Positions 16,136-23,600 of a stretch of DNA of 64,000 nucleotides are shown one piece after another. Both the position numbers and the translations under genes were made by a program. Where the stretch lies: assembly GCF_013184545.1 (NCBI RefSeq), contig NZ_JAAOJA010000007.1, forward strand, positions 62,001 to 126,000, read 5' to 3'. Position 1 is the stretch's first letter. Every line of letters starts with the position of its first letter. The notes below the pieces were generated by a model. It was not told the origin of the DNA and ran no database searches. It worked only from the letters and a program-made list of their open reading frames with translations. This DNA comes from Pseudomonas tumuqii (GTDB taxonomy: Bacteria; Pseudomonadota; Gammaproteobacteria; Pseudomonadales; Pseudomonadaceae).

Positions 16136-16300
16136 GGAGGGTCTCCTGTGGGGGCACGAGATAAAAGCTTAGACCCGGTTTCGCCGAACGCGGTGCTTAT
16201 CCATTGACGTCCACGCCGCGGGTCTCTACCCTGCGCGGCTTGCAACAGGTGCCCCCGACTTTGGGCCTGCCACGATCTGCCTCGCTCTAGCTCGCGAGCT

Positions 16301-16510
16301 CGTGAACAGGTCCCGGTGTCCGAGGGGTGAAACAGGGAAGTCGGTGCGTTGTGCGTGTTCACGCCAACAATTCCGACGCTGCCCCCGCAACGGTAGACGA
16401 GTCAAACCAGCGCGTTTCAACCACTGTGCTTCGGCATGGGAAGGTGCGTTTTGGTCGCGTTCTGAGTCTTCAGTTCGCCGCTCGTAAGCCCGGAGACCGG
16501 CCTGCTGCAG
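16301..16510 (+). promoter_or_regulatory. Cobalamin (AdoCbl) riboswitch
   Basis: Conserved blocks occur in order: ACAGGTCCCGGTG, GTGAAACAGGGAAGTCGGTG, the B12-box-like GCTGCCCCCGCAACGGTAGA, then GAGTCAAACCAGCG, CCACTG, CATGGGAAGGTG and the closing GTAAGCCCGGAGACCGGCC. It lies about 130 bases upstream of btuB and would repress btuB and downstream genes when adenosylcobalamin is plentiful. Boundaries are approximate. The DNA from 16136 to 16300 upstream presumably holds the promoter. Confidence 0.93.
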
Positions 16511-16636
16511 TCCATGGCATCGCGGAGGGCGTTGTCTGGCGTGTGGGCTGCGCCGTTCCTGCAGTTCATGCGTCTGCGTTCTCCGTATGCCTTTCCTGGC
16601 CTATCGCTCGGGTGAGAGCGACGGAGCAACAACGCA

Positions 16637-18484
16637 ATGAGCAAGTCCCTTCTCCAACCGACAGCATTGCTGCTGTGTGGTGTTTCGAGCATTTCCCCGG
16701 CCCAGGCGGCCGAACACGCGTATCTGCAAGACCAGTTGGTGACGGCCACCCGCAGCGTGCAAACCACGCAGCAGAGCCTGGCCGCGGTGACGGTATTCGA
16801 CCGTGCGCAGATCGAGCAGAGCCAGGCCACGTCGGTGCCCGAGTTGTTGAAGAAAGTGCCGGGGGTTTCTCTGGCCAACAATGGCGGGCCAGGCAAGCAC
16901 ACCTCGCTGTTCATGCGCGGCAGCGAATCCGACCATGTCTTGGTCCTGATCGATGGCATCAAGATCGGTTCGGCTACCTCCGGTGGCGCGGCCTTGCAGG
17001 ATCTGCCGCTGGAGCTGATCGAGCGCATCGAGGTGGTACGCGGGCCGCGTTCCAGCCTGTATGGCTCGGAAGCCATCGGCGGGGTGATCCAGATTTTCAC
17101 CCGCAAGGGCAAGGGGAGCGGCGCCAAGCCGTTTTTCTCCGCCGGTTACGGCACCCATGACAGCTACAGCGGCAGCGCCGGGATCTCCGGTGGCGACGGC
17201 AAGGCATGGTACAGCCTGGGTCTCAGTGGCGCGGATAGCGACGGCATCAACGTCAAGCCGGTCTCCAGCAGCGGCTATGAAGACGATGCCGACGGCTACC
17301 GCAACCTGTCCGCCGCGCTGAGCGCCGGCTATCGCTTCGACAACGGCCTGGAGCTGGACGCCAATCTGCTGCAGGCCAAATCGCACAACGATTTCGATCA
17401 GGTCAACCGCGCGCGCACCTCGGGTTTTCGCGCCAACGCCAATGGCGAATCCCGGGTGTTCGGCAGCCGTGTGCGGTTCTCGCCGCTCGACCCCTGGCTG
17501 GTCACCCTGCAAGCCGGGCGCAGCGAAGACAAGTCCGATGGTTACCTGGACGGCCACTTCGATTCGCGTTTCGACAGCCGCCGCGACAGCGCCAGCTGGC
17601 AGAACGACCTGACCCTGGCGGTCGGGCATAGCCTGATCCTGGGCGTCGACTATCAGCGCGATGAGGTCAATGGCAGCACCCCTTACGCCGAGGACTCGCG
17701 GGACAACAAGGGCGCCTTCGCCCAGTACCTCGGCACCGTCGAGCGACATGACTGGCAGCTGTCGCTACGGCGTGACGACAACCAGCAGTTCGGCCAGCAC
17801 GACACCGGCAATATCGGCTACGGCTATGCCCTGACCGATTGGCTGCGCGGCACCATCAGCTACGGTACGGCGTTCAAGGCGCCGACCTTCAACGAGCTGT
17901 ATTTCCCCAACTACGGCAATCCGGCGCTGGATGCGGAAACCTCGCGCAGCCTGGAAGTCGGCCTGGCCGGCCAGCACGGCTGGGGGCATTGGGCGGTCAA
18001 CGCCTTCCGCACGCGGATCGACGATCTGATTGCCTATGACTCGAGCATCCGCGGCCCGGCCAATGTCGACGAGGCGCGCATTCGCGGTATCGAGTGGGTG
18101 CTCGGCAGCCGGTTGCTGGGGCTGGACTGGAGCGCCAACTACACCGTGATGGAACCGGAGAACCGTTCCGGCGGCGCCAACGACGGCAACGAACTGGCAC
18201 GTCGCGCCAAGCAGATCTTCAACCTGGATCTGGACCGTCGCCTCGGCGCCTTCAGCCTCGGCGCCAGTCTGCACGCCGAAGGCCAGCGCTACGACGACCT
18301 GGCCAACACCAGGGAGCTGTCCGGCTACGCCAGCCTGGATCTGCGCGGCGAATACCACATCAGCCCCGAGTGGCGCCTGCAAACCCGGGTCGCCAACCTG
18401 CTGGATGCCGATTACGAAACTGCCGAAGGCTACAACCAGCCCGGTCAGGCGCTGTACCTGAGCGTGCGCTATCAGGCGCTGTAA
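16637..18484 (+). CDS. btuB: BtuB-type TonB-dependent cobalamin receptor
   Basis: A 615-residue outer-membrane receptor. A signal peptide ends near SPAQA-AEHAYL; a TonB-box-like DQLVTATRS follows; the plug domain runs through SVPELLKKVPGVSLANNGGP, LFMRGSESDHVLVLIDGIKI and IEVVRGPRSSLYGSEAIGG; and the barrel ends in an aromatic-rich strand LYLSVRYQAL. It imports corrinoids across the outer membrane using the proton motive force through TonB. Control by the riboswitch upstream and the cobalamin genes downstream make the substrate assignment strong. Confidence 0.94.
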   Translation: MSKSLLQPTALLLCGVSSISPAQAAEHAYLQDQLVTATRSVQTTQQSLAAVTVFDRAQIEQSQATSVPELLKKVPGVSLANNGGPGKHTSLFMRGSESDHVLVLIDGIKIGSATSGGAALQDLPLELIERIEVVRGPRSSLYGSEAIGGVIQIFTRKGKGSGAKPFFSAGYGTHDSYSGSAGISGGDGKAWYSLGLSGADSDGINVKPVSSSGYEDDADGYRNLSAALSAGYRFDNGLELDANLLQAKSHNDFDQVNRARTSGFRANANGESRVFGSRVRFSPLDPWLVTLQAGRSEDKSDGYLDGHFDSRFDSRRDSASWQNDLTLAVGHSLILGVDYQRDEVNGSTPYAEDSRDNKGAFAQYLGTVERHDWQLSLRRDDNQQFGQHDTGNIGYGYALTDWLRGTISYGTAFKAPTFNELYFPNYGNPALDAETSRSLEVGLAGQHGWGHWAVNAFRTRIDDLIAYDSSIRGPANVDEARIRGIEWVLGSRLLGLDWSANYTVMEPENRSGGANDGNELARRAKQIFNLDLDRRLGAFSLGASLHAEGQRYDDLANTRELSGYASLDLRGEYHISPEWRLQTRVANLLDADYETAEGYNQPGQALYLSVRYQAL

Positions 18485-18536
18485 GCCATGCCCGTGGGCA
18501 CGGCTCCCCTTACGTGTTTAACCTGGAGATGAATGG

Positions 18537-19106
18537 ATGAACCTGTCACCCCGTACCCAACTGCTGATCGGCATCGCCCTGGCGGCGCTGATGGCCATGA
18601 CCCGTGGCCAGCACTTCGCCACGCTCAACCTGCCCAGTGCCTCCTGGGCGGTATTCTTGCTGGCGGGTGTGCTGCTCAAGCCGCGCTGGGTATTTCCGGC
18701 GCTGTTCATCGAGGCCTCCGTGCTCGATTTCGCCGCCATTCAATGGGCCGGGGTCAGCGATTGGTGCATGTCGCCGGCCTACTGGATGCTGGTGCCGGCG
18801 TATGGCTCGCTGTGGCTGGGCGGTCGCCTGTATGCCGGCTGGCACAGTAATCGCCTGAGCAGCCTGGCGCTGCTGGCGGCAACCGTGGCGGTCAGCGCCC
18901 TGGTTTGTTACCTGTTCTCCGGTGGCGGTTTCCTGTTCTTCTCCGGTCGTTATCCGGAGCCGACCCTGGCCTTGCTGGCCGATCGCATTGCGCTCTATTA
19001 CCCGCGTTACCTGGGCAGCCTGGCCCTGTATGTCGGCCTGGCGGCGCTGCTGTATGTCGGCGCCCGCTCCTGGCAACTCGCCCAGCAACGCGTCGAGGTC
19101 AAGTGA
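18537..19106 (+). CDS. BtuM-like integral membrane protein (candidate cobalamin transporter)
   Basis: A 189-residue protein with about six hydrophobic segments. The N-terminal region TRGQHFATLNLPSASWAVFLLAG and a single conserved-looking Cys77 in VSDWCMSPAYW recall BtuM, a solitary ECF-type S component of Gram-negative bacteria in which one cysteine binds the cobalt of cobalamin. It sits 52 bases after btuB and overlaps cobO by one base, so it belongs to the same riboswitch-controlled unit, and it could move cobalamin or a precursor across the inner membrane. The family assignment rests on memory and context, not alignment; an unrelated membrane protein is possible. Confidence 0.6.
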   Translation: MNLSPRTQLLIGIALAALMAMTRGQHFATLNLPSASWAVFLLAGVLLKPRWVFPALFIEASVLDFAAIQWAGVSDWCMSPAYWMLVPAYGSLWLGGRLYAGWHSNRLSSLALLAATVAVSALVCYLFSGGGFLFFSGRYPEPTLALLADRIALYYPRYLGSLALYVGLAALLYVGARSWQLAQQRVEVK

Positions 19107-19717
19107 TGAGCGAGTCGAGCGAACGCGATGCCCGACACAAGGCGCGCATGGCGCGCAAGAAGGCGCTGATCGACGAGAAGATCGCCCAGGCCCAGGACGA
19201 ATACGGCCTGCTGCTGGTGCACAGCGGCAACGGCAAGGGCAAGAGCAGCAGCGCCTTCGGCATGGTCGCGCGCGCCCTCGGCCACGGCATCAGGGTCGGC
19301 GTGGTGCAGTTCATCAAAGGCGCGGCCAGCACCGGCGAGGAAACCTTCTTCCGCCGTTTTCCCGATGAAGTCAGCTACCACGTGATGGGCGAGGGCTTCA
19401 CCTGGGAAACCCAGGACCGCCAGCGCGACATCGACAAGGCCCATGAAGCCTGGCGGGTCGCCGCGCAGTTGCTGAGTGATCCGGCCATTGGCCTGGTGGT
19501 GCTCGACGAGCTGAATATCGCCCTGAAATACGGCTACCTGGAGCTGGCGACGGTGCTCGCCGACATCGAGGCCCGGCCGTTGCTGCAACACGTGGTAGTG
19601 ACCGGCCGTGGCGCCTTGCCGGGGATGATCGAGGCGGCGGATACCGTCACCGAGATGAACCTGGTCAAGCATGCGTTCAAGGCCGGGGTCAAGGCGCAGA
19701 AAGGGGTGGAGTTCTGA
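19106..19717 (+). CDS. cobO: Cob(I)yrinic acid a,c-diamide adenosyltransferase
   Basis: A 203-residue CobO/BtuR enzyme. The P-loop is HSGNGKGKSSSAFGMVARAL, followed by VGVVQFIKGA, FTWETQDRQRD and VVLDELNIALKYGYL, all diagnostic of the family. It transfers the 5'-deoxyadenosyl group from ATP to Co(I) of the corrinoid. The ATG overlaps the stop of the preceding membrane-protein gene by one base. Confidence 0.96.
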   Translation: MSESSERDARHKARMARKKALIDEKIAQAQDEYGLLLVHSGNGKGKSSSAFGMVARALGHGIRVGVVQFIKGAASTGEETFFRRFPDEVSYHVMGEGFTWETQDRQRDIDKAHEAWRVAAQLLSDPAIGLVVLDELNIALKYGYLELATVLADIEARPLLQHVVVTGRGALPGMIEAADTVTEMNLVKHAFKAGVKAQKGVEF

Positions 19718-19943: not shown

Positions 19944-21251
19944 ATGAGCGCGCCACGCCACTGCCCGGCGCTGCTGATCGCCGCGCCCGCCTCGGGCCAG
20001 GGCAAGACCACGGTCACCGCCGCCCTGGCACGGCTGCATAGCCGTCAAGGCAAGCGGGTTCGGGTGTTCAAGTGCGGGCCGGATTTTCTCGACCCGATGA
20101 TCCTCGCCCGCGCCAGCGGCGCGCCGGTGTATCAGCTCGACCTGTGGATGGTCGGCGAGGTCGAGAGCCGGCGCCTGCTCTGGCAGGCGGCGGGCGAGGC
20201 CGATCTGATTCTGATTGAAGGGGTGATGGGCCTGTTCGACGGTTCGCCATCCGCCGCCGATCTGGCCCGGCAGTTTGGCGTGCCGGTGCTGGCGGTGATC
20301 GACGGCTCGGCCATGGCCCAGACCTTTGGCGCCCTGGCCCATGGTTTGGCCAGTTTCCAGGCGGATCTGCCGTTCTCCGGGGTGCTCGGCAACCGGGTCG
20401 GCAGCACCCGGCATGGCGAGATATTGCGCGACGCCTTGCCTGCGTCGATCCGCTGGTACGGCGCCTTGCCGCGCAGCGCCGCGGTGGAGTTGCCGAGTCG
20501 GCATCTGGGGCTGATTCAGGCCGAGGAACTGAGTGACCTGGACGCGCGCCTGGATGCCGCCGCCGATGCCCTGGCCGCCAGTGCCGATGTCAGCCTGCCG
20601 CCACCCGTCGAGTTCGCCGTGCCGGCGCCGCGTGAGATCCCGGCCTTGCTCGACGGCGTGCGCATCGGCGTGGCGCGCGACAGCGCCTTCGCCTTCCTCT
20701 ACCAGGCCAACCTGGATCTGCTGGGCGAGCTGGGCGCCGAGTTGTGCTTCTTCTCGCCGTTGCGCGACAGCCGACTGCCCGAGGTCGACAGCCTGTACCT
20801 GCCCGGCGGTTACCCCGAGTTGCACCTGACGCAACTGCAGGCTAACCAGGCCATGGCGGATTCGATCCGCGCGCACCATGCCGCCGGCAAGCCGATCCAC
20901 GCCGAATGCGGCGGCATGCTGTATCTGCTCGATAAGCTGACCGACAAGCAGGGCAGCAGCGCCCGGATGCTCGGCCTGCTGACCGGCGAGGCGACCCTGC
21001 AACCGCGCCTGACCGCCCTGGCGCTGCAGGAGGTCGAACTGCCGCAAGGGCGACTGCGTGGCCATACCTTCCACCACTCGGCTCTGACCACGGCGCTTGT
21101 ACCGCTCGCGCGCGGCGAGTGCCCGAACTACCAGCGCACGGCCGAGGCGGTCTATCGACTGGGCCGGCTGACGGCCTCCTATATCCACTTCTATCTAGCG
21201 TCCGATCCGGTCGCGGCGGCGGCGCTGTTTGCTCCGGGCCAACAACCATGA
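19944..21251 (+). CDS. cobB: Cobyrinic acid a,c-diamide synthase
   Basis: A 435-residue CobB/CbiA amidotransferase. The ATP site PASGQGKTTVTAALARLH is near the N-terminus, and GVMGLFDG follows. The C-terminal glutamine amidotransferase domain shows YLPGGYPELH and the catalytic Cys in HAECGGMLYLLD. It amidates the a and c carboxylates of (hydrogeno)cobyrinic acid. It overlaps bluB by 4 bases. Not to be confused with sirtuins also called CobB. Confidence 0.95.
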   Translation: MSAPRHCPALLIAAPASGQGKTTVTAALARLHSRQGKRVRVFKCGPDFLDPMILARASGAPVYQLDLWMVGEVESRRLLWQAAGEADLILIEGVMGLFDGSPSAADLARQFGVPVLAVIDGSAMAQTFGALAHGLASFQADLPFSGVLGNRVGSTRHGEILRDALPASIRWYGALPRSAAVELPSRHLGLIQAEELSDLDARLDAAADALAASADVSLPPPVEFAVPAPREIPALLDGVRIGVARDSAFAFLYQANLDLLGELGAELCFFSPLRDSRLPEVDSLYLPGGYPELHLTQLQANQAMADSIRAHHAAGKPIHAECGGMLYLLDKLTDKQGSSARMLGLLTGEATLQPRLTALALQEVELPQGRLRGHTFHHSALTTALVPLARGECPNYQRTAEAVYRLGRLTASYIHFYLASDPVAAAALFAPGQQP

Positions 21252-21901
21252 GCGAGCATGCCTTCAGCGCCGAGGAGCGCGCGGCGGTCTATCGCGCCAT
21301 TGCCGAGCGGCGCGACATGCGCCACTTCTCTCCTGGGCGGGTCGCGCCGGCGCTGCTGGCGCGCCTGCTCGAGGCGGCGCACCAGGCGCCCAGCGTCGGC
21401 CTGATGCAGCCGTGGCGCTTTATCCGCATCAGCCGGCCGGCGCTGCGCGAGGCGATCCAGGCCCTGGTGGAAGAGGAACGGCTGCGTACCGCCGAGGCCC
21501 TGGGCGAGCGTGGTGATGAATTCATGCGGCTCAAGGTCGAGGGCATTCGCGACTGCGCCGAACTGCTGGTGGTGGCGCTGATGGACGGGCGCGAGGCCCA
21601 TGTGTTCGGTCGGCGTACCTTGCCGGACATGGACGTGGCGTCATTGGCCTGCGCCATCCAGAATCTCTGGCTGGCCGCCCGTGCCGAGGGGCTGGGCATG
21701 GGCTGGGTCTCGCTGTTCGAGCCGCAGGCGCTGGCCGACCTGCTGGGCATGCCGCCGGGCAGCAAGCCATTGGCGGTGCTCTGCCTGGGGCCGGTCGAGG
21801 CGTTTTATCAGGCGCCGATGCTGGTCCAGCAGGGCTGGGCCGAGCCGCGTCCGCTGCAGGCGCTGCTGTATGAGAATTATTGGGGAGAAACTCAGCGATG
21901 A
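21248..21901 (+). CDS. bluB: 5,6-dimethylbenzimidazole synthase
   Basis: A 217-residue flavin-destroying nitroreductase-fold enzyme. AIAERRDMRHFSPG, AAHQAPSVGLMQPWRFI, VFGRRTLPDMDVASLACAIQ and EGLGMGWVSLFEP are characteristic of BluB. It breaks down reduced FMN to make the lower ligand of cobalamin with oxygen, so this pathway is aerobic at this step. It is translationally coupled to cobB and to the next gene by 4-base overlaps. Confidence 0.95.
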   Translation: MSEHAFSAEERAAVYRAIAERRDMRHFSPGRVAPALLARLLEAAHQAPSVGLMQPWRFIRISRPALREAIQALVEEERLRTAEALGERGDEFMRLKVEGIRDCAELLVVALMDGREAHVFGRRTLPDMDVASLACAIQNLWLAARAEGLGMGWVSLFEPQALADLLGMPPGSKPLAVLCLGPVEAFYQAPMLVQQGWAEPRPLQALLYENYWGETQR

Positions 21902-22695
21902 AAGGCCCGCAACGCATCGTCTGCCTGTCCACCGAGACCTGCGAAACCCTCTATCTGCTCGGCGAGCAGGCACGCATCGCGGGGATTTCCGGCTTTACCG
22001 TGCGCCCGCCGCAGGCACGCAAGGAAAAGCCCAAGGTCAGCGGCTTCACCACGGCGCGGATCGACAAGATCCTCGCGGTCAAGCCGGATCTGGTCCTGGG
22101 CTACTGCGACCTGCAGGCCGACATCGCCGCCGAACTGGCCCGCGAAGGCCTGGAAGTGCACCTGTTCAACCAGCGCGACATCGCCGGCACCTACCGCATG
22201 ATCGAAACCCTCGGCGCCCTGGTGCATGCCAACGACCGCGCCGCACGGCTGATCGGCGAGCTGCAGGATGGCCTGCAGCGCATTCGCGCCAGTGCCGCGC
22301 AATTGCCACGCCGGCCCAGGGTGTATTTCGAGGAATGGAACGAGCCCTTGATCAGCGGCATCGGCTGGGTCAGCGAGTTGATCGAACTGGCCGGCGGCGA
22401 GGATTGCTTCGCCGAGCTGGGCGGCTGCAAGCGGGCCAAGCAGCGGATCATCGCCGACCCGCTGGAAGTGGTGCGGCGTGCGCCTGATCTGATCGTCGGT
22501 TCCTGGTGCGGCAAGCGCTTTCGCCCTGAGCAGGTGCTGGCCCGGCCCGGCTGGGAGACGATCCCGGCGGTGCGTAACGGCCAGCTGTTCGAAATCAAAT
22601 CGGCGGACATCCTCCAGGCCGGCCCGGCCGCGCTGACCGATGGAGTGCGCCAGCTGCACGCGCTGATTCGTGGCTGCGTGGAGGCGGGCGATTGA
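21898..22695 (+). CDS. BtuF-like cobalamin-binding protein without signal peptide
   Basis: A 265-residue protein with the two-lobed periplasmic-binding fold of BtuF-type proteins: [60 protein letters not shown] and [15 protein letters not shown]. The start at 21898 overlaps bluB by 4 bases, and no hydrophobic leader precedes the fold; upstream in-frame codons add none. Either the protein acts in the cytoplasm or it reaches the periplasm by an unseen route. No BtuC/BtuD genes are near. Its position inside the nucleotide-loop genes supports a corrinoid-related role. Confidence 0.8.
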
Positions 22696-23600
22696 GCCTG
22701 ATACTCGCTACCCTAGCCGGCGTGGCCCTGGATGCCGTGTTCGGCGAATCGAAAGGCTGGCATCCGCTGGTGGCCTTCGGCCGCCTGGCCGAACGCATCG
22801 AACAGCGTTGCAACGCCGGCGGCAGCGGCTGGCGCAGCCATGGCGTCGGCGCCTGGTGCCTGGCGGTATTGCCCCTGACCCTGCTGGTCGGCGTGCTGGC
22901 GCAGGTGCCGCTATTCGGCTGGGCGGTGGAGATTCTCGCCCTGTATGCCGCCCTCGGCTTGAAGAGCCTCGGCGAGCATGCCCAACCGGTGGCCCAGGCG
23001 CTGCGCCTGGGCGATCTGCAACTGGCGCGCACGCGGGTCGGCTATCTGGTCAGCCGCAACACCGCCGCGCTGGATGCCACGGGCGTCGCTCGCGCCGGCA
23101 CCGAGTCGGTGCTGGAAAACGGCTCGGATGCGGTATTCGCTGCGCTGTTCTGGTTCCTCGTCGCCGGTGCGCCGGGGGTGGTGCTGTATCGCCTGAGCAA
23201 TACCCTGGACGCCATGTGGGGCTACCGCACCCCACGCTTCGAGCGCTTCGGCTGGGCCGCGGCGAAGATCGACGATGGGCTCAATTATCTGCCCGCACGC
23301 CTGGTGGCGCTGACCTATGCGCTGCTCGGCCAGACGGCCCTGGCACTGCGCTGCTGGCGGCAGCAGGCGCCGCGGTGGGACAGCCCCAACGCCGGCCCGG
23401 TGATGGCCGCCGGTGCCGGCGCCCTGGGCGTCAGCCTGGGTGGCGCGGCCGAGTACCACGGCGAACTGCATCAGCGTCCGCCGCTGGGGCAAGGCCCGCA
23501 ACCCAGGGCGCGGGACATCGAACGGGCGCTCAACCTGGTCTACGCCGGGGTGCTGCTGTGGCTGGCGCTGTTGCTGCTCTGGGGACTGTACCGTGTTTAA
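22692..23600 (+). CDS. cbiB: Adenosylcobinamide-phosphate synthase (CbiB; CobD in Pseudomonas naming)
   Basis: A 302-residue membrane protein. [24 protein letters not shown] at the N-terminus, [20 protein letters not shown] and [26 protein letters not shown] are hallmarks of the family. It attaches (R)-1-aminopropan-2-ol phosphate to adenosylcobyric acid. The start codon is TTG at 22692, overlapping the previous stop by 4 bases, with GGAGGCG just upstream. Several hydrophobic segments fit an inner-membrane location. Confidence 0.94.

Follow-up and report, generated by a model that had tools for sequence, protein, structure and literature searches.

The gene at 18537-19106 of the window (the whole stretch of 64,000 nucleotides that was analysed) encodes a genuine BtuM, as its sequence, the fold predicted for it, its pocket residues and the surrounding operon all support. 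Taken overall, the best explanation, which we hold with high confidence, is that btuM provides an inner-membrane corrinoid importer within a riboswitch-controlled operon for corrinoid import and completion. With it, a transporter that has been characterised but rarely sampled is found in a Pseudomonas apparently incapable of corrin-ring synthesis.

The btuM gene and its operon

The following features were identified in the window.

16291-16519, forward strand: cobalamin riboswitch (RF00174, 91.5 bits, E 2.2e-21, cut-off 31.5), preceding btuB
16637-18484, forward strand: btuB, TonB-dependent vitamin B12 receptor (TIGR01779, 785.3 bits, cut-off 599.7)
18525-18528, forward strand: GGAG, the likely ribosome-binding site of btuM, read directly, 8 nt 5' of the ATG
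18537-19106, forward strand: btuM, 189 amino acids with an ATG start; six-helix inner-membrane cobalamin transporter, with Cys77 as the predicted cobalt ligand
19106-19717, forward strand: cobO/btuR, corrinoid adenosyltransferase (TIGR00708, 220.4 bits, cut-off 167.75)
19944-21251, forward strand: cobB, cobyrinic acid a,c-diamide synthase (NF002204, 456.6 bits, cut-off 254)
21248-21901, forward strand: bluB, 5,6-dimethylbenzimidazole synthase (TIGR02476, 252.2 bits, cut-off 150; searched from 21239)
21898-22695, forward strand: leaderless BtuF-like gene (Peripla_BP_2 without a signal peptide; PF01497, 161.2 bits; searched from 21880)
22692-23600, forward strand: cbiB/cobD, adenosylcobinamide-phosphate synthase (PF03186, 311.6 bits; TIGR00380, 170.3 bits, cut-off 165.9)

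The operon runs in the order riboswitch, btuB, btuM, cobO, cobB and bluB, followed by the BtuF-like gene and cbiB, and downstream of cbiB lie genes resembling cobD/C, cobQ, cobU, cobT, cobC and cobS (names taken from reading the translations alone). A cobalamin riboswitch had been named as the control element in the original prediction, and it was recovered by the RF00174 model. The gap between btuB and btuM is 52 nt, while the last base of the btuM stop codon TGA (19104-19106) is also the first base of the cobO ATG (19106-19108), and this one-base overlap bears out the predicted coupling of btuM to cobO. A promoter scan found no site, and the six terminator-like sites detected were all inside ORFs (shuffle mean 2.3, sd 1.7).

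The btuM frame is not a chance ORF, because relatives are encoded at 65 loci of other genomes. The gene directly upstream is btuB in 64 of these (the exception being L071), cobO follows directly in 61 (exceptions L038, L053, L072 and L073), and cobB is found somewhere in the stretch at 62 (exceptions L038, L071 and L073); L071 and L073 are short loci. In the subset scanned for riboswitches, one was present upstream of btuB at 7/7 loci. The nearest named relative among the matches listed, from which very near genomes were possibly omitted, was the BtuM of Pseudomonas aestuarii (93% identical).

The association of BtuM with such a cluster has already been published for Azotobacter chroococcum NCIMB 8003 (Achr_16170; PMC4465626, partial text), in which a twelve-gene late-pathway and salvage cluster lies behind a cobalamin riboswitch and btuM adjoins btuB. 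BtuM has also been noted in a Stutzerimonas isolate (PMC10378866, partial text).

Sequence, fold and pocket of BtuM

None of the Pfam or NCBIfam models matched the BtuM protein beyond chance (two NCBIfam models reached E 0.12 and 0.22), therefore its identity was tested against solved structures, and its membership of the family rests on these together with the alignment. A FecCD-type permease (BtuCDF) identity was set aside, as the protein had no Pfam match. In a sequence search of the PDB with E-values up to 10, the sole match was 8c7p/8ovv (E 2.1e-47, residues 1-175), the entries being titled "Tagless BtuM" in complex with cyanocobalamin (8c7p) or hydroxycobalamin; the titles give no organism, and the numbering fits the BtuM of T. 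denitrificans.

The predicted model (pLDDT 89.1, made from 38 rows comprising the window protein and 37 proteins from fetched loci) contains six helices, each 11 to 45 residues long, in agreement with the six-segment membrane protein first proposed, plus an extra four-residue helix at 75-78 that contains Cys77. When this model was used as the Foldseek query, the best match was 8c7p (E 2.4e-12, TM 0.85/0.89, 48% identity), and the other BtuM entry of the pair gave TM 0.82/0.88.

The next three Foldseek matches were folate S-component chains with insignificant E-values of 0.56-1.4. Together with the S-component-like fold, they are what could suggest that the btuM product is an S-component dependent on an ECF module encoded elsewhere. 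S-components such as FolT and RibU have a similarly shaped six-helix fold (on weak scores), but they need the ECF module, and EcfT (PF02361) had no match in the host genome and was present in only 2 of 69 BtuM carriers, being absent from 67. A dependence on a hidden module is therefore largely refuted and was dropped as very improbable.

The original prediction had also pointed to Cys77 in VSDWCMSP and to an N-terminal stretch, RGQHFATLNLPSASWAVF, and both are as claimed, the latter being residues 23-40. H26, D64, C77, Y82 and R150 align with H28, D67, C80, Y85 and R153, which are named as the pocket residues of T. denitrificans BtuM (PMC6072759, partial text). In an alignment of 77 sequences (76 ORFs from the 65 loci and the window protein), C77, D64, Y82 and R150 were each present in 77/77 and H26 in 76/77, with a gap at that position in the remaining row. 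The cysteine had been placed near the cytoplasm or a loop, and here the loop stands and the cytoplasm does not, as the equivalent cysteine of T. denitrificans BtuM is in loop L3, with the cobalamin close to the periplasmic surface; its C80S mutant abolishes both complementation and decyanation (PMC6072759, partial text).

The size, helices and operon position would also agree with some other membrane protein encoded in the cob operon and unrelated to BtuM, for example a cobalt transporter. This is hardly credible given the specific sequence and fold match to BtuM and the presence of all five pocket residues, and a cobalt transporter or generic membrane protein was dropped because the sequence match is specific to BtuM. 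The protein and its setting thus combine the features of BtuM: homology, a six-helix S-component-like fold, the invariant cysteine, the four other pocket residues, btuB and cobO as neighbours, and a host without an ECF module. The likeness to T. denitrificans BtuM covers the six helices, the cobalt-ligand cysteine with four pocket residues, btuB and an adenosyltransferase gene alongside, and the absence of EcfT (PMC6072759, partial text). However, the operon in the window differs in that it extends through genes for late steps of the cobalamin pathway and includes a leaderless BtuF-like gene, and its genome has a candidate BtuCDF elsewhere.

Corrin supply and other importers

No CbiC/CobH was found in the host genome (5.5 Mb in 64 contigs, completeness 100, contamination 0.61), and it encodes 3 tetrapyrrole methylases, compared with 2-4 in eight other genomes with BtuM and without CobH, and 8, 8 and 9 in three genomes with CobH. 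With no CobH and only 3 of these methylases, the host should not make the corrin ring, and as it seems unable to build one, the corrin would have to be imported. In this the genome differs from that of A. chroococcum, which has both BtuM and corrin-ring synthesis, the ring genes being on a plasmid (PMC4465626, partial text), whereas the markers tested are missing here.

By analogy with T. denitrificans BtuM and from general knowledge, BtuM in the inner membrane would accept the corrinoid from BtuB at its periplasmic face and bind it in the base-off form, Cys77 serving as the lower cobalt ligand, a ligation that would also strip cyanide. The corrinoid would then reach the cytoplasm with no help from an ECF module or ATPase, and co-translated CobO could trap it there by adenosylation. 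The whole operon would form a pathway for corrinoid import and completion, because the host has no corrin-ring synthesis genes, and the riboswitch would presumably lower its expression when cobalamin is plentiful. The E. coli BtuCDF system does the same job of inner-membrane cobalamin import, but according to the literature it is an ABC transporter with an ATPase and a binding protein, whereas BtuM has neither and has a different fold.

The absence of corrin-ring synthesis can be related to BtuM across 198 Pseudomonadaceae genomes. BtuM was found in 69 (including one partial match of 41 residues, in G174), CobH in 117, both in 10, BtuM alone in 59, CobH alone in 107 and neither in 22. CobH was therefore absent from 59/69 BtuM carriers and from 22/129 non-carriers (p 2.3e-21 by Fisher's test, which ignores phylogeny). 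After stratification by genus (Cochran-Mantel-Haenszel; 19 genera, four informative), p was 8.6e-5, in a test that still counts the species of one genus as independent. The genus of the window (g1) was completely split, with 2 BtuM carriers without CobH and 39 other genomes with CobH (p 0.0012), and the exclusion also held in genus g15 (p 0.0039). There was no exclusion in g5 (p 1) or in g10 (p 1), where 4/5 BtuM carriers have CobH. BtuM and CobH are therefore largely exclusive in the sampled Pseudomonadaceae, clearly so in two of the four informative genera.

The original prediction had argued that BtuM is the importer since no BtuCD genes are nearby. This is true of the locus, but an exported BtuF and a BtuC-like permease with an ATPase are encoded elsewhere in the genome, therefore BtuM may not be the sole importer. 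The exported BtuF is the only exported one of the two PF01497 proteins of the genome, and its best PDB match is the vitamin B12-binding protein 5ysc (E 1.3e-38). Its gene adjoins, on the opposite strand, a second and more divergent btuB-like gene (514.6 bits, under the cut-off of 599.7), which follows a second cobalamin riboswitch (L005, 7466-10634, contig C9). The permease and ATPase genes are on another contig (L006, 8602-11385, contig C13), and no binding-protein gene was recognised in the 16 kb stretch that holds them. This permease is the sole full FecCD permease in the genome, and the two NCBIfam models that fit it best are for BtuC, although it scores below their cut-offs. With a sole full FecCD permease and a sole exported PF01497 protein, a scattered BtuCDF is plausible and may work beside BtuM.

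It is possible, if somewhat doubtful, that the scattered BtuF, FecCD permease and ATPase are the main BtuCDF, and that BtuM has a secondary or specialised role, importing other corrinoids, for example cobinamide or intermediates that feed cobB and cobQ earlier in the pathway. The B12-binding match of BtuF, the BtuC models of the permease and the uniqueness of both proteins in the genome agree with this, as do the cobB gene at most BtuM loci, the retention of an exported BtuF orthologue by most BtuM carriers (60/69) and the binding of cobinamide by T. denitrificans BtuM at about 0.6 uM (PMC6072759, partial text). However, besides the sub-threshold permease, the ATPase scores above the cut-off of a heme-transporter model (353.2 bits against 261), therefore the ABC system could serve heme; a 2009 survey describes such B12 systems as hard to separate from iron, siderophore and heme systems (PMC2667541, partial text).

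The 198 genomes also bear on this. With orthologue cut-offs set after viewing the lists (exported BtuF, best E <1e-40; FecCD, <1e-70; leaderless protein, <1e-50), the exported BtuF was found in those 60 BtuM carriers and in 105/129 non-carriers (p 0.42), and the FecCD orthologue in 62/69 and 104/129, respectively (p 0.11). A strict replacement of BtuCDF by BtuM was therefore rejected, as BtuM is not exclusive of either protein and is no simple substitute for an ABC importer. Speaking against a purely secondary role, seven BtuM carriers (G010, G015, G026, G031, G081, G121 and G126) have no BtuF, FecCD orthologue, CobH or EcfT, and BtuM is the only importer recognised in them by the searches used. 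Together, these patterns suggest that in Pseudomonadaceae BtuM tracks the absence of ring synthesis and not the absence of BtuCDF. The seven BtuM-only genomes could be useful for understanding how a lone S-component moves its substrate, and so could the operon in which a putative cytosolic partner is encoded.

The leaderless BtuF-like protein and further btuM loci

The candidate partner is the product of 21898-22695, between bluB and cbiB. It has no signal peptide, because the reading frame is open for only 8 codons upstream of the ATG. Among 26 other rows, 8 have a frame that begins no more than 13 codons ahead of the match (L009, L010, L020, L022, L035, L037, L051 and L086, of which L037 and L086 seem to be the same genome). 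The remaining 18 have an open frame of 21-238 codons there, and for these the absence of a leader is read from the conserved start only. C9, C15, C170, C204 and C260 are invariant in 14/14 aligned rows of the leaderless protein, and its structure prediction was poor (pLDDT 61.9). When 14 leaderless and 10 exported proteins were aligned, the five leaderless rows inspected all kept the docking acid of the N-lobe and had L, Q or A for that of the C-lobe. We take these positions to be the docking glutamates of E. coli BtuF with BtuC, and the pattern is suggestive only.

Leaderless orthologues were present in 29 of the 198 genomes, all 29 of which have BtuM, and in each btuM lies 1.9-3.1 kb upstream of the gene, both being on one contig and strand. 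A further 40 BtuM carriers in this sample do not have the protein, and the gene is present at 19/65 of the BtuM loci. Three homologues with 57-66% identity were found on plasmids of Xanthomonas sacchari, Ideonella and Methylobacterium, and the gene table, which is incomplete, lists no cob gene within 9 kb of them; the BtuM search had no match in these three plasmid records. As these homologues are away from cob operons, the leaderless family is not tied to BtuM generally, and its role as a BtuM-specific partner is half supported. The Ideonella homologue is near icmF, a gene for a B12-dependent mutase, and a fourth plasmid match had 26% identity.

A more speculative and improbable scenario is that the btuM operon of Pseudomonadaceae is a corrin-scavenging module that takes over after the loss of ring synthesis. 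BtuM would then import cobalamin and also corrinoids that are still incomplete, and a cytosolic acceptor, the leaderless protein, would pull the corrinoid off BtuM and pass it to CobO, so giving direction to an energy-free transporter. A literature search of paper listings and selected passages recognised no report of the anti-association with CobH, the link to a leaderless BtuF or a tandem btuM pair; this new context around btuM is useful but secondary.

Such tandem pairs, btuM1-btuM2 before cobO, were seen at 11 Lysobacteraceae loci (L059-L065, L067 and L069-L071). Both copies keep the cysteine, and btuB is upstream in 10/11, not being seen in the short L071, which is from Xanthomonas axonopodis, a species given as without BtuFCD in PMC2667541 (partial text). 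Of the 77 sequences, 36 were placed in a tree, where a supported branch separates the two copies and copy 1 is near a Nitrosomonadales sequence.

Two btuM clusters on different contigs (L045 and L072) were found in Stutzerimonas stutzeri 95A6, which could be a mixture of strains; in the L072 cluster, cobO does not come right after btuM and FecCD- and ATPase-like genes are nearby. On a Novosphingobium plasmid (L094, 5914-7085), a distant BtuM-like protein annotated as hypothetical is encoded directly before cobO.
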